Below are positions 43,543 through 61,381 of a stretch of DNA of 64,000 nucleotides, in pieces. Location: positions 1 through 64,000 of the forward strand of contig NZ_JAOPHT010000010.1 in NCBI RefSeq assembly GCF_025515305.1, written 5' to 3'. Source of the DNA: Roseicyclus sediminis. Lineage in GTDB: Bacteria > Pseudomonadota > Alphaproteobacteria > Rhodobacterales > Rhodobacteraceae. The position numbers and the translations under genes are program-made. The notes under the pieces were generated by a model. The model saw only the letters and a list, made by a program, of their open reading frames with translations, had not been told where the DNA came from and searched no databases. How positions within the stretch are numbered: the stretch's first letter is position 1; the number at the start of each line of letters is the position of its first letter.

Positions 43543-44928
43543 TCATGGCGAGAGCGCGGCGACCTCGGTCAACCGGGCGCCCACCGCCGCGTTCGAGCCG
43601 AAGCCATAGCGGCCCCATCCCAGGCTGTCGAGGCGCACCGCGCGCGCCTCGCTTGCGCGGCCGACATCCTGCAGCGCCTCGGCGCGGATCATCAGCAGCG
43701 TCGAGAGAAGCGCCGCGTTCTGCGCCTGTGTCGCCGCCGGGATCGCACGCGTGGTCAGGCGCAGCGCCTCCTCGGCGCGGCCCGCCGACAGCGAGAAGGC
43801 GGCAAGCTGCATGTCCACATGCGCCAGCTGGATGCCGCCCGGCGCGTCGCGCTCGAAGATCGCCGCGGCCGTCTGGAAGGCCTGGACCGAGCGGTCGGCG
43901 TCCCGGCTGAGCGTCAGGCGGCCGAGCGCGAAGAAACTGAAGCCGAGGCGCGTGTCGTCCCATCCGGCGTTGCGTGCAATGGTCACGGCCCGTTCGGCCG
44001 ACTGGATGCGCGCGGCTTCGGAGGTTCCGGGCCCGAGCGCTGTCTCGATCGCGTCGATCCAGGCGCGCGACGTGGCCCGCACGGTCGTGCGCGAGGCGCG
44101 CTCGCCCCGCGGGTTCAGCCGCGCGAGGATGCCGGGCAGCCGCGCGGAGACCTCGGCCCGGGTCATGCCCGTGGCAAGCTCGCGGTCGTAGTAGGCCCGC
44201 AGGACCAGCATGTCGAAGCCGGTCAGCACGGCATGGAAATTGTCGTCGTTGAAGACGGAATCGGGCAGGCGGTAGAGATCGTTCAACGGCCCCAGCGCCT
44301 GCGCCACCTCCTCGTGGAGGCAATCGCGCACCTCCTGCGGGGAGACGTCGGAGGGGATGAAGACGGCAACCCTTTCGCGTGCGGCGAGGGTGGTCCAGTC
44401 GAGATCGCGGCTGTTGCGCGCGCGGCGGAACTCGCCCCAGGAACTGACGCGGGGCACCACGAAACAGGCCGCCTGCGGCACGACGCGCTGCATGCGCGCG
44501 CGGGGCAGGGTCTCGATCGTGATGCCGGCGGGGCCGTCGCCCGCGCCGATCCGCGCGATGTCGATGCCGGCCTCCGCCCGCAGCCGGGCGATGAGCGCGT
44601 CGAGATCGGCGGTCAGGGTCGCGGGCGGCGTTCCCGTCACCGTGACGGTGATCGGGCCTTCGAACCGGCTCATGCCCGTGATCGGGCGGCCCGATTCCAT
44701 GGCGAAGGCGAGATCGAGGAAATCGGCGGCGATCTCGCTGTTCGCGCGGCCCGGCGCCATGGGGGCGGACCCGGCAAAGCGGTTCATGCCCGGCAGATCG
44801 CCCGCAAGCGTGTCGGCCCGCCGCTCGGCGATGGCCGAGGTCGAAACGCTCGGGGTGCAGGCGCCGAGCGCGAGAGCCAGGACAAGAGGCAGCGCAGAGG
44901 CACGCAGGATGCGGCGGGACAGGGACAA
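43543..44928 (-). CDS. DUF2927 lipoprotein with tetratricopeptide-like C-terminus
   Basis: A 461-residue lipoprotein: signal peptide with lipobox ALGAC, a DUF2927 domain (NSEIAADFLDLAFAMESGRP; CFVVPRVSSW) containing CLHEEVAQALGPLND, then about 150 residues of helical repeats (SAERAVTIARNAGWDD; AEEALRLTTRAIPAATQA). HEE with downstream ND recalls a degenerate metalloprotease site. Start is uncertain: TTG 44928, five bp after the GNAT stop, gives the signal peptide. A paralogue without the helical tail lies at 58185-59165. Confidence 0.82.
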   Translation of the reverse strand: MSLSRRILRASALPLVLALALGACTPSVSTSAIAERRADTLAGDLPGMNRFAGSAPMAPGRANSEIAADFLDLAFAMESGRPITGMSRFEGPITVTVTGTPPATLTADLDALIARLRAEAGIDIARIGAGDGPAGITIETLPRARMQRVVPQAACFVVPRVSSWGEFRRARNSRDLDWTTLAARERVAVFIPSDVSPQEVRDCLHEEVAQALGPLNDLYRLPDSVFNDDNFHAVLTGFDMLVLRAYYDRELATGMTRAEVSARLPGILARLNPRGERASRTTVRATSRAWIDAIETALGPGTSEAARIQSAERAVTIARNAGWDDTRLGFSFFALGRLTLSRDADRSVQAFQTAAAIFERDAPGGIQLAHVDMQLAAFSLSAGRAEEALRLTTRAIPAATQAQNAALLSTLLMIRAEALQDVGRASEARAVRLDSLGWGRYGFGSNAAVGARLTEVAALSP

Positions 44929-44933
44929 GGCGG

Positions 44934-45383
44934 TCAGCTCCGGCTGTATTTCATGAAGTCGGTGGCCACCGCGATCCGGTCGTAGAGCCGCCGCGCGGTC
45001 GCGTTCCCGGTCTGGGTCATCCAGTAGACGTTGGGCCGCCCGGCCCGGTCGGCGTCGGCATAGACCGTCTCGATCAGGGCGCGGCCAAGTCCACGCCCCC
45101 GCGTGTCGGGATCGGCATAGAGGTCCTGCAGGTAGGTGACCGGCGCTTCCTGCCAGCCATGGGAATGGACGATGACATGGACGAGGCCCACGGCCCGCCC
45201 GGCATGACGGGCGATCCATGCCAGCATGTCGGTCCGCGCCGGATCCGTGTAGCGCGCGAAGGTCGTGTCGAAGACATGGGCCGGACGTTCGGCCCCGTAG
45301 AAGGCGAGATAGGCCCGCCACAGGCGGTCCCAATCCGCGCGATCCCCGGACTCCAGGGGTCTGATCTCGATGCCGTCCGTCAC
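44934..45383 (-). CDS. GNAT family N-acetyltransferase
   Basis: A 149-residue acetyltransferase. GTG 45383 (VTDGIEIRPLESGDRADWDR) is preferred over upstream ATG codons. The CoA-binding loop is LYADPDTRGRGLGRALIE (R/Q-x-x-G-x-G/A). The domain covers the whole protein, so no substrate can be assigned. It is directly upstream of, and likely cotranscribed with, the DUF2927 lipoprotein. Confidence 0.85.
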   Translation of the reverse strand: MTDGIEIRPLESGDRADWDRLWRAYLAFYGAERPAHVFDTTFARYTDPARTDMLAWIARHAGRAVGLVHVIVHSHGWQEAPVTYLQDLYADPDTRGRGLGRALIETVYADADRAGRPNVYWMTQTGNATARRLYDRIAVATDFMKYSRS

Positions 45384-52562: not shown

Positions 52563-53006
52563 TCATGCCTCGGTTTCGAGCCAGATTGTAACCGGCCCGT
52601 CGTTCGTCAGCGAGACTTTCATGTCGGCGCCGAATTGTCCCGTCTCGACCGCGGGGCCAAGGGCCGCAAGCGCGCGGGCGAAGTGGAGGTAGAGCCGTTC
52701 GCCGGTCTCGGGCGGGGCCGCGGTCGAGAAACCCGGACGGTTGCCGCGTCGCGTGTCGGCGGCGAGCGTGAACTGGCTGACGACCAGCGCGCCGCCCCCG
52801 GTGTCGAGGAGCGCGCGGTTCATCTTGCCCGCCTCGTCCTCGAAGATGCGGAGCTTGGCGACCTTCGCGGCAAGCTTCTCCGCCTCGGCCTCGGTGTCGC
52901 CCTGCATCGCGCAGACGAGGATCATCAGGCCCGGCCCCGTGCGCCCGATCACCGTGCCGTCCACGGCGACCTCGGCCCCGGTCACGCGCTGGACCAGCGC
53001 CCTCAT
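52563..53006 (-). CDS. dtd: D-aminoacyl-tRNA deacylase
   Basis: Proofreads D-aminoacyl-tRNAs and Gly-tRNA-Ala. The 147 residues begin [20 protein letters not shown] and contain both active-site signatures, [17 protein letters not shown] and [13 protein letters not shown] (the Gly-cisPro region). Length is typical. Its start overlaps the sugar kinase stop (ATGA). The stop codon falls inside an inverted repeat. Confidence 0.95.
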
Positions 53007-53932
53007 GCCAGTTCGTCGCGCGTCGGCGGGTTGGCCCCGGCGCGCGAGACGGTGACCGCCGCCGCACGCACCCCGAGGTCGAGCGCGGCCCGCAATGCAT
53101 CCTCGGACAGGCCGGCGCGAAGGGCCTGCTTCGTCAGTGCGCCGCCCTCGTGAAGGCCCGCGAGCAGCCCCGCGTTGAAGGTGTCGCCCGCGCCGACCGT
53201 GTCCACGACCTTCGCCTTGGGCGCGGGGTGGTGAAGCGTGCCGCCTGGACCGTAGGCGCTGACGCCATCCGCGCCCCGGGTGACGAGCAGGAGCGCGGGC
53301 CCCTTCTCTTGCAGGGCGGCGGCGTTGGCGTCGATATCCGCGCCGCCCATCAGCCATTCGAGATCCTCGTCGGAGACCTTGACGATATCGGCGATCGCGA
53401 GGAGCCGATCCATGCGCGCCCTGTAGCGGGCCTCGTCGGCAATGAAACCGGGCCGGATATTGGGGTCGAGCATCACCGGAAGACCCGCGTCCGCGACACG
53501 ACCCGCCAGGGCGGCATAGGCCTCGGCGCAGGGTTCCACGGCCAGCGAGATGCCCCCGAAGAAACCGGCGGTGCAGGTCTCGGGCAGGGCGGGCAGATCG
53601 GCCTCGCCCAGCATCCGTCCCGCGGTGTTCTCGTCGTAGAAGGTGTAGCTTGCATGACCGTCGTGCAGCGTCACGAAGGCCAGCGTCGTCGGCCGCGAGG
53701 AGCGTGCGGCCAGCGCGTGGTCCACGCCATTGACCGCAAGGACCCGGCTCAGTCTTTCGCCGAAAAGGTCATCCGAGAGGCCCGAGAAGAACGCCACCGG
53801 CGTCTTCAGCCGCGCCAGCGCCACTGCCGTGTTGAAGACGGCGCCGCCGGGATAGGGTGCGAAGGCGCTTTCCCCCTCCTCGGTCTTGCGCGGCAGCATG
53901 TCGATCAGGGCTTCTCCGGCGCAAAGTATCAT
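53003..53932 (-). CDS. PfkB-family carbohydrate kinase (fructokinase-like)
   Basis: A 309-residue ribokinase-fold kinase: [15 protein letters not shown] start, [15 protein letters not shown], and the signature [20 protein letters not shown] with catalytic Asp. The GEALIDM form favours fructokinase. ATG 53932 is chosen over upstream in-frame codons. It overlaps dtd. No sugar transport genes are nearby, so the physiological sugar is unclear. Confidence 0.88.
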
Positions 53933-54072
53933 GGCGGTCTCCGTGTGACGTCCCGCCCTTGCTAGCGCCCGTGCGCGTCCGCTTCCAGCGGATTTGACGC
54001 ACGTCAAGGACGCCTTCCCTTCGATCGTGAAAATCGCGCTGGTCAATCACCCACATGGAGGAGGAGGTTTCC

Positions 54073-54501: not shown

Positions 54502-55710
54502 TTACTTGGACACGGTCGGCGCGATCGGGGCGGGGGAGAACCCCGTCCCGAAATCCGTGCCGAAGCCGGTGTCGAACCCGCCCTGGTCCACCAGGTCCAG
54601 CCCGTAGATCACCGCGATCCCGACGATGATCGCAACGATCACGGCAATCGCGATCTTGATCGCCGACCAGGGCCGCTCGCCCTGCACCTTGCCGGTCTGC
54701 GCGTTCACCACGAAGCGGTAGGGCTTGCCGCGATAGCGGTAGGCGGCCAGCCAGACGGGCAGGAGGATGTGCTTGAAGGTGATGTTGGACACGTCGGTGT
54801 CGACGTGGCCGATCTGCTGCGCGTCGCCGCCGATGTCGCGGCGGATGTCGTTGCGGATCGTGGCGTCCATGATCAGGCGCGCCTCGTCCATCCCCTCGTC
54901 GAGATCGACGGTGTAGCCCTCGGCGCGAAACCCCGAGAGGTAGTCGGGCCGATATTCCGCCAGTGCGTTCAGCGACCAGGGCGCAAGGCCATCGGTGAAC
55001 CGCTTTGGCAGCGAGCGCGAGGCCAGCACGAGGACGTCGTCGAAGGCGCGCGCCACGCGGCCGGACACCGGGGTCCAGCGGATGCGCCGCTCGCGCCGCG
55101 TCTTTCCGTCCGGCCCGCGCACGGTGACGTAATAGGCGGTGCCGCGCTGCCCGGTATACCGCGTCCGCGTGTCGGCGTCGTAGGTCCAGTAGGGGACGTA
55201 GATCCCATCCATCTTGCGGCCCTTGCGGGCATATTCCTGCAAGCCGTTCGGCGCGAACCACAGCCGGCCGAGCCATTTGTTCATGGCCTCGTGCGCCTGC
55301 CGCTCGGTCAGGGCGAAGGGCAGGACGGCCTGTGGCTTGACGTGCCGGTGCGTGCCCGTGTCGGTCACGACCGGTGTCGCGCAGAAGGGGCATTCCTGGG
55401 CGTGGACGTCGGCCGCGAAAGTGACCTGCGCCCCGCAGGAGGGGCACTGGCTGACCCGGGTTTCCTCCATCTCGGAGGCCGACAGCCGGTCGCGCAGCGC
55501 GGTGCGGAAGTCGAGTTCCCGGATCCCGCCCGTGCCGTCGCCCCACGGCCCGGAAGTCTCGCCCGAGGTGATCTCCTCGACGTTGCCGCAATGATCGCAG
55601 ACGAGTTTTCCCTCGCCGGGTGCAAAGCGCATGTCGGCGCCGCACTGGCTGCAGGGAAACCGGTGCTCGTCCTCGGGCCGGGCGACGTCGAGCGGAGATG
55701 TGTCGGTCAT
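54502..55710 (-). CDS. Zinc-ribbon membrane-associated protein
   Basis: A 402-residue protein with two zinc ribbons near the N-terminus (FPCSQCGADMRFAPGEGKLV with CDHCG; CPSCGAQVTFAADVHAQECP with FCAT), a large middle region (SLPKRFTDGLAPWSLNALAE) and a C-terminal hydrophobic helix (IKIAIAVIVAIIVGIAVIYG). Such proteins are often annotated as TFIIB-type zinc-ribbon or PriA-like by the ribbon alone; helicase motifs are absent. It groups with SPFH/TelA genes upstream, so a membrane-linked role is likely. Confidence 0.85.
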   Translation of the reverse strand: MTDTSPLDVARPEDEHRFPCSQCGADMRFAPGEGKLVCDHCGNVEEITSGETSGPWGDGTGGIRELDFRTALRDRLSASEMEETRVSQCPSCGAQVTFAADVHAQECPFCATPVVTDTGTHRHVKPQAVLPFALTERQAHEAMNKWLGRLWFAPNGLQEYARKGRKMDGIYVPYWTYDADTRTRYTGQRGTAYYVTVRGPDGKTRRERRIRWTPVSGRVARAFDDVLVLASRSLPKRFTDGLAPWSLNALAEYRPDYLSGFRAEGYTVDLDEGMDEARLIMDATIRNDIRRDIGGDAQQIGHVDTDVSNITFKHILLPVWLAAYRYRGKPYRFVVNAQTGKVQGERPWSAIKIAIAVIVAIIVGIAVIYGLDLVDQGGFDTGFGTDFGTGFSPAPIAPTVSK

Positions 55711-55801
55711 CGGGCAGTCTCCTGCGCTCTGCGGTTCCGCGCGCCCCCGTTCTCCCGCGTCCCCGGTCGGTGATCAAGTCCGCGCGCGGCCTTGGCGGCG
55801 C

Positions 55802-56395
55802 TCAGAGCCATCGGTGCAACGCGCGGGGCACCATGATCCTGAGCGCGTTGTCGCCGAGGACGACATGACGCCAGAGGTGAAACCCGGCGTGAAGCGCCAC
55901 GACACCGCCGAGGGCATAGAACTGGTAGACGTGGAACCAGCTTGCCAGGGCATGTGCGTCGGGCAGGTCGAGGGGCGGCGCGATCGGCAGGAAGCCACCG
56001 GCCTTCAGCAGGACCTGGCTCGTCAGTCCCAGGAGGAAGCCGCCGACGGCGACGAGGAACAGGCCCCAGATCAGCGTGCGGTGGAGTATGCCATGCAGGA
56101 CACGGCCCCAGCGCGGAAGCTTCGGCCCGGGGCGCCCCATCAGCCCCGCGTGCAGGTGCCATGCCGTCCAGATCAGCGCCAGCGTCACGAAGATGAGGCC
56201 GTTGACCGAGTGCAGCAGGAACCAGCCCGGCCCCATGGCGCGGATCGCGTCGGGGTCGGCGAAGAGAAACCAGACGAAGAAGGGCAAGAGGCCCCAATGC
56301 AGCCATTTGAGGCGTGTGCGCGGGTGCGGCAGGCGCCGCGCGGCATGAGCGCGCGCTTTGGGCGGCTGGGGCGGTGTCGATGCGATCGTGGGCAC
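55802..56395 (-). CDS. Cytochrome b561-like membrane protein
   Basis: A 197-residue protein with four predicted helices and histidines at helix positions expected for heme b ligation (RLKWLHWGLLPFFVWFLF; LLHSVNGLIFVTLALIWTAW; LHGILHRTLIWGLFLVAVGG; YALGGVVALHAGFHLWRHVV). GTG 56395 gives a soluble N-terminus. It likely moves electrons in the inner membrane, as in cytochrome b561 or hydrogenase-type b subunits. Its link to neighbouring stress genes is unexplained. Confidence 0.8.
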   Translation of the reverse strand: MPTIASTPPQPPKARAHAARRLPHPRTRLKWLHWGLLPFFVWFLFADPDAIRAMGPGWFLLHSVNGLIFVTLALIWTAWHLHAGLMGRPGPKLPRWGRVLHGILHRTLIWGLFLVAVGGFLLGLTSQVLLKAGGFLPIAPPLDLPDAHALASWFHVYQFYALGGVVALHAGFHLWRHVVLGDNALRIMVPRALHRWL

Positions 56396-56480
56396 GGGAA
56401 AAGATCCTAGCCACGGGTCTGCGCCCGGCAAGCGGGAGGAACGCGAAGTTGAACACAAGCGCCGGCGATCCCGACAGGGC

Positions 56481-56840
56481 TCACGCTCCGCGGCACTGCC
56501 GCCGGGTCTCCTGCTCCAGCTGCGCCAGCGCGAGGCCGAGGGAGACACCGCCGAGCAGGCCGCCCTCCAGCAGGCGGCGCTGGGCCTGATCCTCGGGCAG
56601 GGTCAGCAGGGCGACAAGCTCCGTGAATTCCGCGTCAGACAGCACATCGCGCGCGACGCCGTACTGGCAGGCGCAATAGGCGCGGCTGGTGCCGTCTTCC
56701 TGGCAGGCCGCCATGAAGTCCGCGCGCTCGCCCCAGCAGCCCGCCAGCAGGGCGGGGAAGGCCAGCGCCGCCGCGACCCCGCGCCCTTTTCGCGCGATGC
56801 GGCGCCGCCCCGCGCTCGGTGACGCTGTGATCCGGGCCAT
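56481..56840 (-). CDS. Cysteine-containing lipoprotein of unknown function
   Basis: A 119-residue precursor with a long basic N-terminus, hydrophobic segment and lipobox ALLAGC. The mature part has a cluster CQEDGTSRAYCACQYG and a C-terminal Cys (RRQCRGA), so disulfides are likely. It lies 15 bp after the SPFH gene. No known family recognised. Confidence 0.78.
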   Translation of the reverse strand: MARITASPSAGRRRIARKGRGVAAALAFPALLAGCWGERADFMAACQEDGTSRAYCACQYGVARDVLSDAEFTELVALLTLPEDQAQRRLLEGGLLGGVSLGLALAQLEQETRRQCRGA

Positions 56841-56855
56841 TGCGGTGTCCTGTCC

Positions 56856-57986
56856 TCAGCCTGCCGGCGGCGGCGGAGGGGGCGGCGGGGGCATGACGGT
56901 GAAGAGCTGCGCCAGTTCCATCACGTCCTCGGCCCGTATCCAGCCGTCCTGACCGGCGGTCCAGACATAGGTCTCGCGGGTGAGGCTGCCTTCGCTCGCC
57001 ATGCGCCCCATGGCGGCCTTTGAGAAGGGGCCCTTCGTGGTCCCGTTCTCGGCGATATGCCAGACATGTTCGACCGGCGGGGGCGGCGGGGCGGCGGCAC
57101 GCTGGGGCGCGGCGGCCGCGGGGGCGCCCCATGGCCCGGTCTGCGCCATCTGGTTGGCCATCGCCATGCCCATGCCCATGCCAAGGCCCGCGCCCATGCC
57201 ACCGTCGCCGCCGGGGTTCTCGGCGGCCGCGCGCATCGCCTCGGCGGTCTGGAACTGCTGATACTTGCCGAGATCCCCCACGACCCCCATCGAGGTGCGC
57301 CGGTCGAGCGCCTCCTCGACCGCCGGGGGCAGCGAGATGTTCTCGATGTAGAGCTCGGGCAGGGTCAGGCCGTACTGCGCGATCGTTTCGGAAATGCGGG
57401 TGGCGACGAGCTGGCCGAAGTCGCCGGTATTCGCCGCCATGTCGAGCACCGGAATGCCGGAGCCAGCGACCACGCGGGAGAACTCCTGCACGATGATGTT
57501 GCGGATCTGGAAGGTGATCTCGTCGGTCGTGAACTCGCCGTCGGTGCCCACGATCTCGGTCATGAAGCGGCCGGCGTCGGACACCTTGACGGTGTAGGTG
57601 CCGAAGGCGCGGATGCGCGTCGGCCCGAACTCGGGATCGCGCAGCATGACGGGGTTCTTCGTGCCCCACTTCAGGTTGGTGAAGCGGTTGGTGTTGACGA
57701 AGTAGATCTCCGACTTGAAGGGCGACTTGAAGCCGTGGTCCCAGTGCTGGAGCGTCGTCAGGATCGGCATGTTGTTGGTCTCGAGCATGTAGAGACCGGG
57801 GGTGAAGATATCGGCGAGCTGGCCCTCGTGGATGAAGACCGCCGTCTGCCCCTCGCGGACCGTGAGCTTGGCGCCGTACTTGATCTCGTGACCATGCCGC
57901 TCGAAGCGCCAGACCATCGTGTCGCGGGTGTCGTCGGTCCACTCGATGACGTCGATGAACTGGCCGGACAGGAAGTTGAAGACCAT
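56856..57986 (-). CDS. SPFH-domain protein with C-terminal GYF_2 domain
   Basis: A 376-residue membrane-associated SPFH protein (YdjI / virion-core-like) lacking an obvious helix: N-terminal FNFLSGQFIDVIEWTDDTRD, SPFH core (FTNLKWGTKNPVMLRDPEFG), then an Ala/Gly/Met linker (GMGAGLGMGMGMAMANQMAQ) and a GYF_2 domain at about 318-370 (VWHIAENGTTKGPFSKAAMG; TYVWTAGQDGWIRAEDVMEL). Such proteins scaffold membrane domains and bind proline-rich partners. Part of the TelA/XpaC cluster. Confidence 0.88.
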   Translation of the reverse strand: MVFNFLSGQFIDVIEWTDDTRDTMVWRFERHGHEIKYGAKLTVREGQTAVFIHEGQLADIFTPGLYMLETNNMPILTTLQHWDHGFKSPFKSEIYFVNTNRFTNLKWGTKNPVMLRDPEFGPTRIRAFGTYTVKVSDAGRFMTEIVGTDGEFTTDEITFQIRNIIVQEFSRVVAGSGIPVLDMAANTGDFGQLVATRISETIAQYGLTLPELYIENISLPPAVEEALDRRTSMGVVGDLGKYQQFQTAEAMRAAAENPGGDGGMGAGLGMGMGMAMANQMAQTGPWGAPAAAAPQRAAAPPPPPVEHVWHIAENGTTKGPFSKAAMGRMASEGSLTRETYVWTAGQDGWIRAEDVMELAQLFTVMPPPPPPPPPAG

Positions 57987-58048
57987 GGGCGTGCCTCTTC
58001 GGGAAATCGTGACCTGATCGAAAGGATAGGGGTTTTGTCGGACCCGCG

Positions 58049-58183
58049 CTAGAGCGGGACACGGCGAAGCGCGGCAAGGGCGGGCGCGTCGCCGGCCGGC
58101 GAGGCCGCCGAAACACGCGGGAGCCCTGTCGCCGCGGGCGCCGTCGCTGCGAGCATCGGGACGAGCGGCACGGACACCGCCAT
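58049..58183 (-). CDS. Small ORF (44 residues)
   Basis: A possible 44-residue protein (MAVSVPLVPMLAATAPAATG then LPRVSAASPAGDAPALAALR) starting 1 bp after the DUF2927 stop, with GGAGG 8 bp before the ATG. It is Ala/Pro/Val-rich, with no helix long enough to be a clear span. The ribosome site also lies in the end of the preceding gene, so chance is possible. Confidence 0.35.
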   Translation of the reverse strand: MAVSVPLVPMLAATAPAATGLPRVSAASPAGDAPALAALRRVPL

Positions 58184-58184
58184 G

Positions 58185-59165
58185 TCAGGATCCTCCGCCA
58201 AGCAGCTCCTGCGCAATCTGCCGGACGATCGGCCGTGCCTCGTCGGGGCGCATGCCGGGGGCAAGCCTTCGGTCGTAGAGAATGCGCAGGAGAAGTTCGT
58301 CGTGCCGCGTCAGCAGCGCGAATTCCTCGTCGTCGTTGAAGATCGAGGGCCGCGCGGCGGGGCTGTCGTTGGGCAGGCCGAGGCCCTGCGCGATCTCCTC
58401 GTGGACACAGGACCGGCGCAGGAGCGGGGGGTGCTCGTCGCGGATGATGGCGATGGCGGCGACATAGTTCGACCCGCCGCCGCCCTGCGAGAAGGCGTAG
58501 ACCGAGCAGAAGGTGAACCGCGGCAGGCGCTCGATCTCGGCCACCGTTTCCGGGCTGATCCCGGGCACCAGGTCGCGCACGAGGCCTCCGACCTCCTGCT
58601 GTGCGTCCCGGCCGACGTAGAGGACGTGGAAGTTGCCGTCCGAAGCGACGGTGCGGATCGGGTGTCCGCTGACGCGGGAGAGGCGGGCGGCATAGGCGCT
58701 GAGCTCGGCCCGGTCGATGGCCTGCTGGGCCTCGCCGACGAGCGGACCGAAATGCGCCTGGAGCCGGACCGGCTGGGCCCAGCGCCGCAACCGCGACGGC
58801 GTTTCCTGCGCGACGAAGCGTCCGCCCGAAAGCGTGTATTCGTCATAGAGCGCGATACGCTCGAAGTTCTCGGTCAGCTGGCGTGCCCCGAAAGGCGCGT
58901 CCGCCGGTGTGAAATCGGTCCGGAGAAGCCCGTCCGATCTCAGCCGAGCCTCCACGGAACGGTAGTAGCGCGCGAAACTCTGGGCTTCGGCCGAGGGCGC
59001 GAGGATTTCGGGCATCTCCTCGGGCGCCTGCGCCGTCGGCGACGGTGTCGGTGTCGTCACGCAGCCCGCGAGAAGCATCAGGGCGACGAGCCCCGCCCCG
59101 AGACGGGGCAGGGCATTTCGTTGGCCTTCCGGCGAAGAGGTCATTCCGGGCCCATTCGGTGTCAC
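58185..59165 (-). CDS. DUF2927 lipoprotein
   Basis: A 326-residue lipoprotein. GTG 59165 overlaps the telA-like stop (GTGA), favouring translational coupling; an ATG at 59144 would still give the lipobox LLAGC. The mature domain ends with CVHEEIAQGLGLPNDSPAAR and YDRRLAPGMRPDEARPI, as in the paralogue at 43543-44928 but without helical repeats. The HEE...ND pattern may be a metal site. Cotranscribed with telA/xpaC genes. Confidence 0.85.
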   Translation of the reverse strand: MTPNGPGMTSSPEGQRNALPRLGAGLVALMLLAGCVTTPTPSPTAQAPEEMPEILAPSAEAQSFARYYRSVEARLRSDGLLRTDFTPADAPFGARQLTENFERIALYDEYTLSGGRFVAQETPSRLRRWAQPVRLQAHFGPLVGEAQQAIDRAELSAYAARLSRVSGHPIRTVASDGNFHVLYVGRDAQQEVGGLVRDLVPGISPETVAEIERLPRFTFCSVYAFSQGGGGSNYVAAIAIIRDEHPPLLRRSCVHEEIAQGLGLPNDSPAARPSIFNDDEEFALLTRHDELLLRILYDRRLAPGMRPDEARPIVRQIAQELLGGGS

Positions 59166-60361
59166 GGATTGCCGGGTGCGGGCGGAGGTCCGCCTGCGGC
59201 GTCGTCCGAGGAGGCCCGCGCGGAGGCCGAGGCGAGCGTGTCGCGCAACTCGGCTTCCATCTTCTGCATTTCGACCTCGGCATCGGCGCGGCGCCGCTTG
59301 CCCTCGTCGGCGATCTGCAGGCTTTCCTCGATCGTGGCGATCAGTTCGGCGTTGGCCTTCTTCACGGCCTCGATGTCGAAGACGCCGCGCTCCATTTCCT
59401 CGCGGACCATGCGGTTCGATTCGCGCAGGTTCTCGGCGTTCTGGGTCAGAAGCTCGTTCGTCAGGTCGGTCGCTTCGCGCACCGCCTTCGCGGCCTCGGT
59501 CGAGCGCTGGATCGTCACCGCCTGCGCCAGCTGCGTCTCCCACAGGGGCACGGTGTTCACGAGCGTCGAGTTGATCTTGGTGACCAGCGACTTGTCGTTC
59601 TCCTGCACCAGCCGGATCGACGGAAGCGACTGCATCGTGACCTGGCGCGTCAGCTTCAGGTCATGGACCCTGCGTTCGAGGTCGTCGCGCGCGGCGCGCA
59701 GGTCGCGCAATTCCTGCGCCTTGATGACCTGGTCGTTCTCGGGCGCCGCGTTTACCTCGGCCTCCTTGGCCGGGATGGTCTGCGTGTCGAGTTCCTCGAG
59801 CTTGGCCTCGCCGGCGGCAATGTAGAGCGCCAGTTCGTCGTAGAAGTCGAGCGTCTTCTCGTAGAGCTTGTCGAGGGACTTGATGTCCTTCATCAGCGTG
59901 TGTTCGTGCTTGAGCAGGTTGTCCGTGATCCTGTCGATCTGGTCCTGCACTTCCTCGTATTTGGCGATGAAGTCATGAAGCGGCCTGGCCCGCCCGAACA
60001 GGCGTTCCCACCAGCTGCGCTTGCGGTTGGGGTCGAGCTCGTCGACCGAGAAGCCGCGGATGGTGCCGACGATCTCGCGCAGCGAGTTGCCCGCCGGGCC
60101 CACGTCCTTGTTCTTCACGCCCTCGAGCATGGCCTGCGAGATCTGCTGCAGCTCGGCCTGCGCGGCGGAACCGAAGGTCACGATCGAGTTCGTGTCGTGC
60201 ATGTCGATCTCGGCCATGCGGCGGTTGATCTGCTCGGCCGTCGGCGCATCGGCCTCGGGCAGCGGCACCAGGTCGGCCGAGGGCTCGGGCAGAACGACGG
60301 CGTTCAACTCGTCGACCAGCTTGGCGACCTCCTCGGCCTCTTCGCGGATTTGCGTGCTCAT
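59162..60361 (-). CDS. telA: TelA-family toxic-anion (tellurite) resistance protein
   Basis: A 399-residue coiled-coil protein of the TelA/KlaA family: residues 1-60 acidic, then TFGSAAQAELQQISQAMLEG, SLREIVGTIRGFSVDELDP, FGRARPLHDFIAKYEEVQDQ and IDRITDNLLKHEHTLMKDIK. Members confer tellurite/envelope-stress tolerance in several bacteria by an unclear mechanism. It is downstream of xpaC (10 bp) and overlaps the DUF2927 gene. Confidence 0.92.
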   Translation of the reverse strand: MSTQIREEAEEVAKLVDELNAVVLPEPSADLVPLPEADAPTAEQINRRMAEIDMHDTNSIVTFGSAAQAELQQISQAMLEGVKNKDVGPAGNSLREIVGTIRGFSVDELDPNRKRSWWERLFGRARPLHDFIAKYEEVQDQIDRITDNLLKHEHTLMKDIKSLDKLYEKTLDFYDELALYIAAGEAKLEELDTQTIPAKEAEVNAAPENDQVIKAQELRDLRAARDDLERRVHDLKLTRQVTMQSLPSIRLVQENDKSLVTKINSTLVNTVPLWETQLAQAVTIQRSTEAAKAVREATDLTNELLTQNAENLRESNRMVREEMERGVFDIEAVKKANAELIATIEESLQIADEGKRRRADAEVEMQKMEAELRDTLASASARASSDDAAGGPPPAPGNP

Positions 60362-60371
60362 GAACGTGTCC

Positions 60372-61289
60372 TCATTCCTCTATATGCAGGTTTTCCCGGT
60401 TAAGCCGCTCCCTCAGGACCTCGATCTCGATGTCGAGGTTGGACCTGTCGTCGGTAAGCATCGCACGGGTGCGCTTGGCGAAGTTGTCTTCCAGGTCGTC
60501 GAGAAAGGCGATGTAGTCGGCGCGGATCTGCGGCTCGCGGTTGCGGGCGTAGAGATCGGCGAACTGCACCGTCGCGTCGCGCGCACCCTGCAGGTAGACG
60601 CCGAGATAGCGGCGCGCGGAACTGAGGTCGCGGGGATCGGCCTCCACCTGGCGGAACATCTGGCGGACCGTATCCTCGAAACGGTCGACCCGCCCTTCGA
60701 GCTGGCGGTCGCGGGCGCGGCGGATGGCGTCCGACATCTCCGACAGAACGCGCTCGGCCTCCTCGATCTTGCGGGCGATGCGGTCCGTCTGGTGCCGGTC
60801 GACACCCTCCAGCCCCTTGTCCTTCATGGGGTCGAGCCCGAAGGAGACGAGGTGCAGGCCCGCGGCGATCACGCCGATCACGATGGCCGTAGCGGGGTTC
60901 CAGTTGCCGCCGAAGACGAGAAGCCCGGTGCCGAGCCCCGTGGCGACCGACCCGAACAGCTTGCGCGGGATCGCCGGGCGGCGCGCGACCTTGCGCTCGT
61001 CGAAGGCATCCTCGGCCCTGACCCCGTCGCGCGTCAGCCAGGCGCCGAGAAAGAGCGCGGCGACGCCGGAGAGATCGGCGGCCAGCGCCGAGACCTGACC
61101 GTTGATCAGCGCGGACGCCAACGCGATCAGCGGCAGGACGAACAGCATGTTGATCTTGGCGCCGTGGCGCATCGGCTTGCGGCCGCGGAAGCTGGGCACT
61201 TCCAGCCGCTCGGCCGTCACGGTCTGACGCGGCGCGCCGGTGTCGCGCTGGCCTGTCGGGCTGTGCTCGCCGCCATAGCGTTTCGACAT
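60372..61289 (-). CDS. xpaC: XpaC-family 5-bromo-4-chloroindolyl phosphate hydrolysis protein
   Basis: A 305-residue protein with a basic N-terminus (MSKRYGGEHSPTG), two membrane segments (INMLFVLPLIALASALINGQ at about 45-65; a second near 105-130) and a long helical tail (ARKIEEAERVLSEMSDAIRR). XpaC and TelA are commonly paired in stress loci; the phosphatase label comes from an indirect assay in Bacillus. The start is 2 bp after a 29-residue ORF. Confidence 0.9.
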   Translation of the reverse strand: MSKRYGGEHSPTGQRDTGAPRQTVTAERLEVPSFRGRKPMRHGAKINMLFVLPLIALASALINGQVSALAADLSGVAALFLGAWLTRDGVRAEDAFDERKVARRPAIPRKLFGSVATGLGTGLLVFGGNWNPATAIVIGVIAAGLHLVSFGLDPMKDKGLEGVDRHQTDRIARKIEEAERVLSEMSDAIRRARDRQLEGRVDRFEDTVRQMFRQVEADPRDLSSARRYLGVYLQGARDATVQFADLYARNREPQIRADYIAFLDDLEDNFAKRTRAMLTDDRSNLDIEIEVLRERLNRENLHIEE

Positions 61290-61291
61290 GG

Positions 61292-61381
61292 TCAGAGGAC
61301 TCCGAATCCACCGAATGCGGCCATCAGGATGATGACACTGAGCGCGAAAAAGGCGACGCCCTGAAGGAAACTGGAGTTCAT
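61292..61381 (-). CDS. 29-residue single-span membrane peptide
   Basis: MNSSFLQGVAFFALSVIILM and nine more residues (AAFGGFGVL) form one transmembrane helix. ATG 61381 follows GGAG by 5 bp, and the stop is 2 bp before the xpaC start. It is the first gene of the presumed TelA operon. Too short for standard gene calling; conservation in relatives would be the test. Confidence 0.65.
   Translation of the reverse strand: MNSSFLQGVAFFALSVIILMAAFGGFGVL

Follow-up and report, generated by a model that had tools for sequence, protein, structure and literature searches.

In Bacillus subtilis, YdjG, YdjH and YdjI are needed for the membrane foci of PspA (PMC8581546), and YdjG combines a pair of zinc ribbons with a domain related to YpeB and a transmembrane (TM) segment (PMC11237479). 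The sigma-W list of the same organism holds pspA-ydjG-ydjH-ydjI and xpaC-yaaN(telA) as separate operons (PMC3498285). Studies on Listeria place xpaC-telA among the LiaSR-regulated genes and report its modest rise together with phage-shock genes under bacteriocin (log2 0.6, about 1.5-fold), the mechanism of TelA being called unknown there in 2026 (PMC12791056), and in Lactococcus an XpaC-like gene (10.3) and telA1 (3.44) are listed in the transcriptome table of work on the overproduction of membrane proteins (PMC3139573). Here we describe a locus at positions 54502-61381, on the minus strand, of a 64,000-nucleotide stretch of the Roseicyclus sediminis genome (contig NZ_JAOPHT010000010.1, positions 1 to 64,000; hereafter the window), in which genes of both kinds stand side by side.

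The locus falls into two units, unit A with micropeptide, XpaC, TelA and DUF2927, and unit B with SPFH and zinc ribbon. The joining of these two units in nearly all relatives is what appears to be new, the SPFH-zinc-ribbon pair and the XpaC-TelA pair being already known. Our preferred reading, in which we place about even confidence, is that the locus encodes a phage-shock-like membrane-surveillance complex independent of PspA, with TelA as a soluble partner that would be clustered by an SPFH scaffold. An earlier note on this DNA, made from the sequence alone, had likened the genes to extended phage-shock or Ter-like stress systems in a layout that it did not recognise. The phage-shock side of that likeness holds by homology (relatives of YdjI and YdjG) and by context, and the Ter-like side is not supported, no Ter domain (TerB/TerC/TerD) being among the Pfam matches of the ten locus proteins scanned. 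Tellurite loci of Rhodobacter and Ter-linked systems have been the subject of earlier work. As for the layout, its SPFH-zinc-ribbon pair is familiar, and what stays undescribed in the literature searched is the joining of that pair to TelA-XpaC: a search conducted mostly without subscription journals returned no description of such a joint locus, the words TelA and XpaC do not occur in the main text of two phage-shock surveys (PMC11237479; PMC9239133), and the main text of a paper on Rhodobacter alkalitolerans has no TelA passage.

Compared with pspA-ydjGHI of B. subtilis, the locus shares a PF13421 SPFH gene and, next to it, the gene for a single-span membrane protein that bears two zinc ribbons, but no PspA or TPM protein was found in it, the single TPM match of the genome lying at C1:85498-85878, about 24 kb beyond. 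TelA, XpaC, DUF2927 and the micropeptide are present instead, and the SPFH protein carries GYF_2 here, whereas YdjI has a zinc finger near its C-terminus. With xpaC-yaaN(telA) of B. subtilis and its counterparts in Listeria and Lactococcus, which are envelope-stress-responsive there, the locus has the adjacent XpaC and TelA in common; the B. subtilis unit, listed as xpaC-yaaN-S22 (PMC3498285), is without the SPFH and zinc-ribbon genes to which the pair is joined here. The band-7/DUF4178/DUF350/polyamine clusters likewise follow an SPFH gene with one for a zinc-ribbon-bearing protein (PMC11237479), but have a DUF4178 partner together with DUF350 and polyamine genes, and TelA and XpaC were not found in the two such clusters among our loci (L185 8466-12195, L209 6004-12750), which represent a separate cluster type.

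Conservation of the joined locus

Among 101 genomes of the window's order, all of which share the window's family label, so that the survey covers one lineage, SPFH was found in 98 and TelA in 99, and the two lie at most 5 kb apart in 97 of the 98 genomes that have both. Searching named genomes with the SPFH sequence gave at least 557 relatives, of which the best 80 were kept, a choice that biases the set to close kin; the closest named relative among the matches listed, from Roseibacterium sp. SDUM158017, is 90% identical. In these 80, TelA stands within 5 kb of SPFH in 77, and XpaC was found in 74, DUF2927 in 76 and the zinc ribbon in 76. Some misses fall at contig ends, and among those with full flanks Rhodosalinus L092 has SPFH and zinc ribbon only, no zinc ribbon was found in L047 and L051, and L094 is without DUF2927. 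Overall, six genes recur (peptide, xpaC, telA, DUF2927, SPFH and zinc ribbon), the cytochrome is occasional, the Cys-lipoprotein is lineage-specific and the 44-residue open reading frame (ORF) is doubtful. The gene order is not due to chance, since the core order recurs in relatives.

The earlier note had staked its proposal on conservation of the neighbourhood, and this indeed extends well beyond close relatives, other families included. Loci from three other families of the class (L032, L034, L036) carry xpaC-telA-SPFH-zinc ribbon without DUF2927. Moreover, in a genome called as one of another class of the phylum (G305, locus L189), XpaC and TelA stand together with a short SPFH-like protein whose end is a GYF_2 domain; this protein matches GYF_2 at E 9e-10 and Band_7_1 at only 0.003, and no zinc-ribbon partner was found at the locus.

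Across 144 genomes of the class, strong SPFH matches (E<1e-20) were found in 8, strong TelA matches in 12, XpaC over the cut-off in 9 and PspA in 23. TelA is present in all eight strong-SPFH genomes (hypergeometric P 1e-10) and in all nine XpaC genomes (P 4e-12), and SPFH and PspA overlap in 2/8 (P 0.37), P values that ignore kinship. The partnership of TelA and XpaC stated in the earlier note agrees with this last nine-for-nine count and with the adjacent PF10112 and PF05816 genes of the window. SPFH and TelA are neighbours in six of the eight class genomes and lie apart in G010 and G128, and XpaC-TelA occurs without a strong SPFH in the genome in G003 and G034. Each unit also occurs without the other, and the locus is therefore to be understood as a joining of unit A to unit B. 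DUF2927 is a wider family than the TelA module: it is found in 18 of the 144 genomes, and only three of these 18, all from the window's family, are among the 12 with strong TelA.

Judged from the sequences sampled, the SPFH-linked TelAs group in a single clade with full support. The maximum-likelihood tree has 30 rows (28 different, three row pairs coming from the same gene), among them 14 of the 66 extracted module TelAs, L189 and 8 of 13 further TelA loci; in it the 15 SPFH-linked TelAs, L189 included, lie on one side of one branch with support 100/100, and none of 500 label shuffles matched this separation. The window's own TelA is represented in the tree by a relative 86% identical to it (L038) and not by its own sequence. 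Long branches lead to L189, L190, L187 and L194, and the place of L189 inside the group is less sure.

TelA, PspA and a proposed SPFH platform

Unit B is by sequence of the YdjI-YdjG kind. An Enterococcus gallinarum plasmid carries genes for SPFH (Band_7_1 E 4e-13), a zinc-ribbon protein and TPM (E 8e-20) one after another, as in the YdjI-YdjG-YdjH set, and its zinc-ribbon protein aligns with that of unit B, the cysteines being kept. The zinc-ribbon protein of the window is 27.5% identical to its Enterococcus counterpart (E 5e-31, 82% aligned), and seven cysteines are invariant in eleven such proteins, that of Enterococcus included; the likeness to YdjG thus refers to this Enterococcus protein and to the layout described for YdjG, not to the B. 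subtilis YdjG sequence. The middle domain gives a weak PepSY match only (E 0.09). Among 14 control genomes, B. subtilis holds the sole PF13421 match at E<=1e-20. GYF domains bind proline-rich peptides, and PPP occurs in the last 22 residues, directly after GYF_2, in all 84 SPFH homologues extracted, often as PPPPPG; a crude GYF core motif (GPF or GAF) is present in only 65 of them. That GYF_2 and a polyproline tail sit in one protein suggests that SPFH carries both a proline reader and its likely ligand, and hence contacts between SPFH copies. The best match of the SPFH protein to a solved structure by sequence is that of its GYF_2 end to 7z3c (E 0.0016).

The family search gave no PspA match in the window's genome, nor in three other surveyed genomes of the genus. 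Absence was judged by PF04012, with which the PspAs of the order score low (E 4e-9 to 7e-24 over the cut-off), so that a more divergent PspA could be missed; G453, with a match below the cut-off, was counted as without PspA. By this measure PspA is over the cut-off in 37 of the 101 order genomes and missing from 64, the window's included, and SPFH and TelA occur with no PspA over the cut-off in 61 of 98 order genomes. No PspA was found in 87 SPFH loci with a profile from ten class PspAs, some of these loci ending at contig ends. Nor did a PspA profile find one in 12 additional SPFH loci, of which 11 belong to other classes (L175-L186). PspA is neither required for the module nor excluded by it, because SPFH-TelA genomes exist both with and without it. 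The PspA loci of the order (L195, L196, L201, L203) hold a divergent PspA.

In the mechanism that we infer, the zinc-ribbon/TM protein of YdjG type, probably with XpaC and the micropeptide, would form an inner-membrane platform on which the SPFH protein, of YdjI type, would cluster, both steps being modelled on YdjG and YdjI. Clustering could be aided by GYF_2 through a hold on the conserved polyproline tails that adjacent SPFH copies carry. TelA, which has no span and is modelled with very long helices (128-205 and 208-324, that is 78 and 117 residues; mean predicted local distance difference test score, pLDDT, 71), would be gathered at the stressed membrane in the place that PspA takes in B. 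subtilis, as its linkage and its clade suggest. The DUF2927 lipoprotein would stand at the outer face of the inner membrane and serve as a sensor there or trim some substrate. A fuller version, which we put forward tentatively and think rather improbable, is that a distinct TelA subfamily, found in Rhodobacterales and scattered other proteobacteria, took over the role of PspA: the SPFH/zinc-ribbon platform would recruit TelA together with XpaC and the conserved micropeptide, and the resulting phage-shock-like response would be free of PspA and linked through the membrane with a DUF2927 lipoprotein of metzincin fold that would sense or process an envelope substrate.

Several observations weigh against the proposed complex. 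All 37 PspA-bearing genomes among the 101 of the order also have SPFH and TelA, and TelA therefore need not replace PspA. No profile homology between TelA and PspA was found (hhalign probability 0.4%, 13 TelAs against 9 PspAs), on which TelA as a PspA homologue was rejected, and XpaC against PspA gives 0.9%. For the TelA model, which is of moderate confidence, Foldseek gave nothing at E<=0.001, and the best VIA Z is 12.7, under the guide value of about 13, with generic long-helix matches; the best rows are alpha-pore-forming toxins and other long-helix proteins, a likeness read as a common arrangement and not as kinship. ESCRT-III/PspA chains are not among the 50 VIA rows shown for TelA, which excludes nothing. 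The binding of proline by GYF_2 is a guess from the family. Further, the two halves are separable: in G407 SPFH and TelA lie on different contigs, far from the ends, with the zinc ribbon adjoining SPFH and DUF2927 adjoining TelA; G440 has XpaC-TelA-DUF2927 without SPFH; and Rhodosalinus L092 has unit B with no TelA within 10 kb. A Paracoccus locus (L210) is without detectable XpaC, and unit B is without nearby TelA in Vibrio, Comamonas and Tsukamurella records and in several genomes of other classes.

TelA owes its name to tellurite and XpaC to a dye phosphate, names that reflect side effects. A toxic-anion (tellurite) resistance locus, in which TelA and XpaC would handle tellurite or similar anions with the other proteins as accessories, is what the TelA family name would imply, and most of the 25 plasmid homologues of TelA shown are annotated as toxic anion resistance; yet for 23 of these 25 the identity to the window TelA is only 24-29%. 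In Listeria, disruption of telA reportedly made cells 2-fold more sensitive to tellurite, but the same mutant was 4-fold more sensitive to nisin (PMC12791056). As TelA is also without a hydrophobic span, and near-universal presence in one lineage better suits a housekeeping role, we regard this explanation as distinctly unlikely. The locus might instead encode an SPFH chaperone platform that helps inner-membrane complexes to assemble or monitors their quality, and would then not be a stress response in itself; the b561-like cytochrome would be its client. A chaperone-like role has been proposed for band-7, CesT/Tir and TPM partners (PMC11237479), and 27 of 87 loci have the cytochrome gene between those for SPFH and the zinc ribbon; it is not at that place in the other 60, however, and YdjI is tied to membrane stress in B. 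subtilis (PMC8581546), and we think this explanation unlikely.

That units A and B are two independent neighbouring operons, separately regulated and adjacent by chance in one lineage, would suit the occurrence of both units alone and the 198 bp that separate DUF2927 from SPFH in the window. This is very unlikely given that the units are linked in 97 of the 98 order genomes with both genes and again in three further families of the class (L032, L034, L036), and given the xpaC-telA-SPFH/GYF_2 arrangement in a genome called as another class (G305), the single TelA clade, and a DUF2927-SPFH gap of less than 50 bp in 53 of 76 loci. An anti-phage defence locus, finally, is scarcely credible. A conflict-systems paper mentions both GYF and SPFH (PMC7159879), and a PHROG named tellurite resistance matches TelA (E 2e-52), whereas PADLOC gave a single weak XpaC match (LeoBC, E 4e-4) for the five proteins scanned, relatives of TelA are absent from three scans of viral contigs, and the locus is near-fixed in one lineage, unlike mobile defence genes. 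PADLOC and PHROGs having given nothing convincing, a defence role was set aside.

The DUF2927 lipoprotein, the micropeptide and the layout of the locus

The DUF2927 protein is predicted to have a metzincin-like fold. For its model (pLDDT 91.2, 72 sequences) the best Foldseek matches are matrix metalloproteinases, three of them at E<0.001; VIA aligns it with matrix metalloproteinase 7 (MMP-7) over 151 residues (Z 11.5, root-mean-square deviation 3.0), and all 50 VIA rows shown are matrix metalloproteinases or karilysin. The zinc motif of metzincins is HExxHxxGxxH/D, and it does not occur in the 77 DUF2927 homologues; 73 of these have HEE-x-A/T-Q-x-x-GL-x-N/D-D and the other four close variants. 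The His and Glu match metzincins and the other two ligand positions differ. The protein would thus share the fold of the metzincin peptidases (matrix metalloproteinases, karilysin, snapalysin) but differ from them in its motif, HEExAQ..GLxND, and peptidase activity is doubtful because two of the metal-ligand positions are not metzincin-like. A lipobox is present in 71 of the 77 homologues, and the residue after it (Asp in 26, otherwise varied, Val in the window) does not point to one membrane for the lipoprotein. A full-text literature search with most subscription journals outside its reach found no paper on DUF2927, and neither TelA nor DUF2927 matches a solved structure by sequence at E<=1. 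A second DUF2927 gene of the window, at 43543-45333 on the minus strand (match 44134-44739, within a longer open frame), has a similar motif, HEEVAQALG...ND, and a third, weaker match lies on contig 2 of the genome.

A hydrophobic ORF of 20-70 amino acids ends just before xpaC in 75 of 78 loci. The same test gives 0/65 before telA, 2/83 before SPFH, 12/76 before the zinc ribbon and 0/77 before DUF2927; it selects whichever ORF is most hydrophobic, and of the 75 at least L034 is unlike the rest by eye. A codon test over 74 loci and the window, with L034 excluded and 73 of the 75 sequences anchored on a Q-K-like motif, found one Leu invariant in all 73 anchored sequences and a ratio of non-synonymous to synonymous differences per site (pN/pS) of 0.65 in frame, against 0.94 and 1.40 in the shifted frames. 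Since synonymous sites are near saturation, this ratio supports coding but is not proof of it. The conserved membrane peptide is about 27-30 residues long.

The window is GC-rich, and its genome, of 4.14 Mb, is 99.99% complete. The features of the locus are collected in the table.

Table. Features of the locus, listed in the order of transcription (window coordinates)
Feature	Coordinates	Strand	Basis
Micropeptide, 29 residues, single membrane span, head of unit A	61292..61381	-	Position, conservation, pN/pS
xpaC (Halogen_Hydrol, PF10112)	60372..61289	-	Pfam E 2.1e-27; two hydrophobic spans, 44-62 and 134-152
telA (PF05816)	59162..60361	-	Pfam E 7.6e-112; no hydrophobic span; predicted all-helical
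DUF2927 lipoprotein, predicted metzincin-like fold, motif C-x-HEExAQGLGLxND	58185..59144	-	Pfam E 3.3e-61
44-residue ORF, probably not a gene	58049..58183	-	No match in family and tblastn searches
SPFH protein, YdjI family (Band_7_1, PF13421), C-terminal GYF_2 and polyproline tail	56856..57986	-	Band_7_1 E 6.4e-102, GYF_2 E 3.9e-20
GYF_2 domain, SPFH residues 309-358	56913..57062	-	Pfam
Polyproline tail, 3' of GYF_2	56859..56891	-	Sequence and conservation
Cys-lipoprotein, 119 residues, lineage-specific insertion	56481..56840	-	No Pfam or NCBIfam match; 0/87 loci
Cytochrome b561-like membrane protein, inserted between SPFH and zinc ribbon in some loci	55802..56395	-	Pfam E 1.3e-5, below cut-off
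Membrane zinc-ribbon protein, YdjG type, with two zinc ribbons, a middle domain and a single span at the C-terminus (350-368)	54502..55710	-	Zn_ribbon_RRN7 E 3e-10

All nine ORFs that the earlier note had grouped together were confirmed in place and on the minus strand. As a nine-gene module the proposal survives for the six recurring genes; the 44-residue ORF, the Cys-lipoprotein and the cytochrome, sparse or absent in the 87 loci, do not belong to the core. The Pfam matches to XpaC, TelA, DUF2927, Band_7_1, GYF_2 and one zinc ribbon exceed their cut-offs, and no Pfam or NCBIfam family matches the 29-residue peptide, the 44-residue ORF or the 119-residue lipoprotein. That the 44-residue ORF is a gene is improbable: besides the lack of a family match, tblastn finds nothing like it at E<=0.01 in the 87 related loci, and there is mostly no room for it, the DUF2927-SPFH gap reaching the 135 bp that it needs in only 11 of 76 loci. 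The lipoprotein was matched in none of the 87 loci, and a comparison with three loci of the same genus gave chance-level matches in two (E 0.2-0.3); the cytochrome scores 25.5 bits against a Pfam cut-off of 30.1. Both occupy a variable slot: over 74 loci, SPFH and zinc ribbon lie within 150 bp of each other in 38 and at least 368 bp apart in 36.

A simple Kyte-Doolittle scan gives one hydrophobic span for the peptide, two for XpaC, one near the end of the zinc-ribbon protein, a signal segment for DUF2927 and none for TelA or SPFH. The genes of unit A are closely packed, with gaps of 2 bp (peptide-xpaC), 10 bp (xpaC-telA) and 17 bp (telA-DUF2927); the 198 bp before SPFH become 62 bp when counted from the 44-residue ORF, and within unit B the gaps are 15 bp (SPFH-lipoprotein), 85 bp (lipoprotein-cytochrome) and 91 bp (cytochrome-zinc ribbon). 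Prediction found no sigma-70 promoter at the locus and no more terminators than in shuffled sequences. In L043, L044, L045, L050 and others, a conserved block around CTTCCCCCTAG stands upstream of xpaC, in most cases at a distance of 145-170 bases, and is itself preceded by a TG some 20 bases earlier; CCCCCTA occurs in 24 of 74 regions upstream of xpaC; the block looks promoter- or operator-like. The region upstream of xpaC in the window is without this block and has a different stretch common to near kin.

Downstream of the module, the ORF at 53003-54046 of the window is kinase-like by eye, and a carbohydrate kinase gene lies 3' of the module on the same strand in Paracoccus ferrooxidans (L210 9450-10370). 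In another genome of the genus (G327, L212 3730-6411), the SPFH frame extends over 894 codons and about 1.5 kb separates DUF2927 from the SPFH match. A Vibrio coralliilyticus plasmid (L205 1700-9136) has an SPFH-zinc-ribbon pair near genes for TIR-domain and TRAFs-binding-domain proteins on the opposite strand.

Implications for TelA and phage-shock-like protection

At this locus the widespread TelA and XpaC are tied to SPFH and zinc-ribbon proteins, the partners by which PspA is brought to the membrane in Bacillus, and units that share a stress sigma factor there make up one locus here. To these the locus adds an envelope lipoprotein with a predicted metalloprotease-like fold and a conserved membrane peptide. 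If TelA is indeed the soluble partner of a PspA-independent surveillance complex, phage-shock-like protection can be built round a different effector, and the central question for TelA would become its recruitment by the SPFH scaffold.

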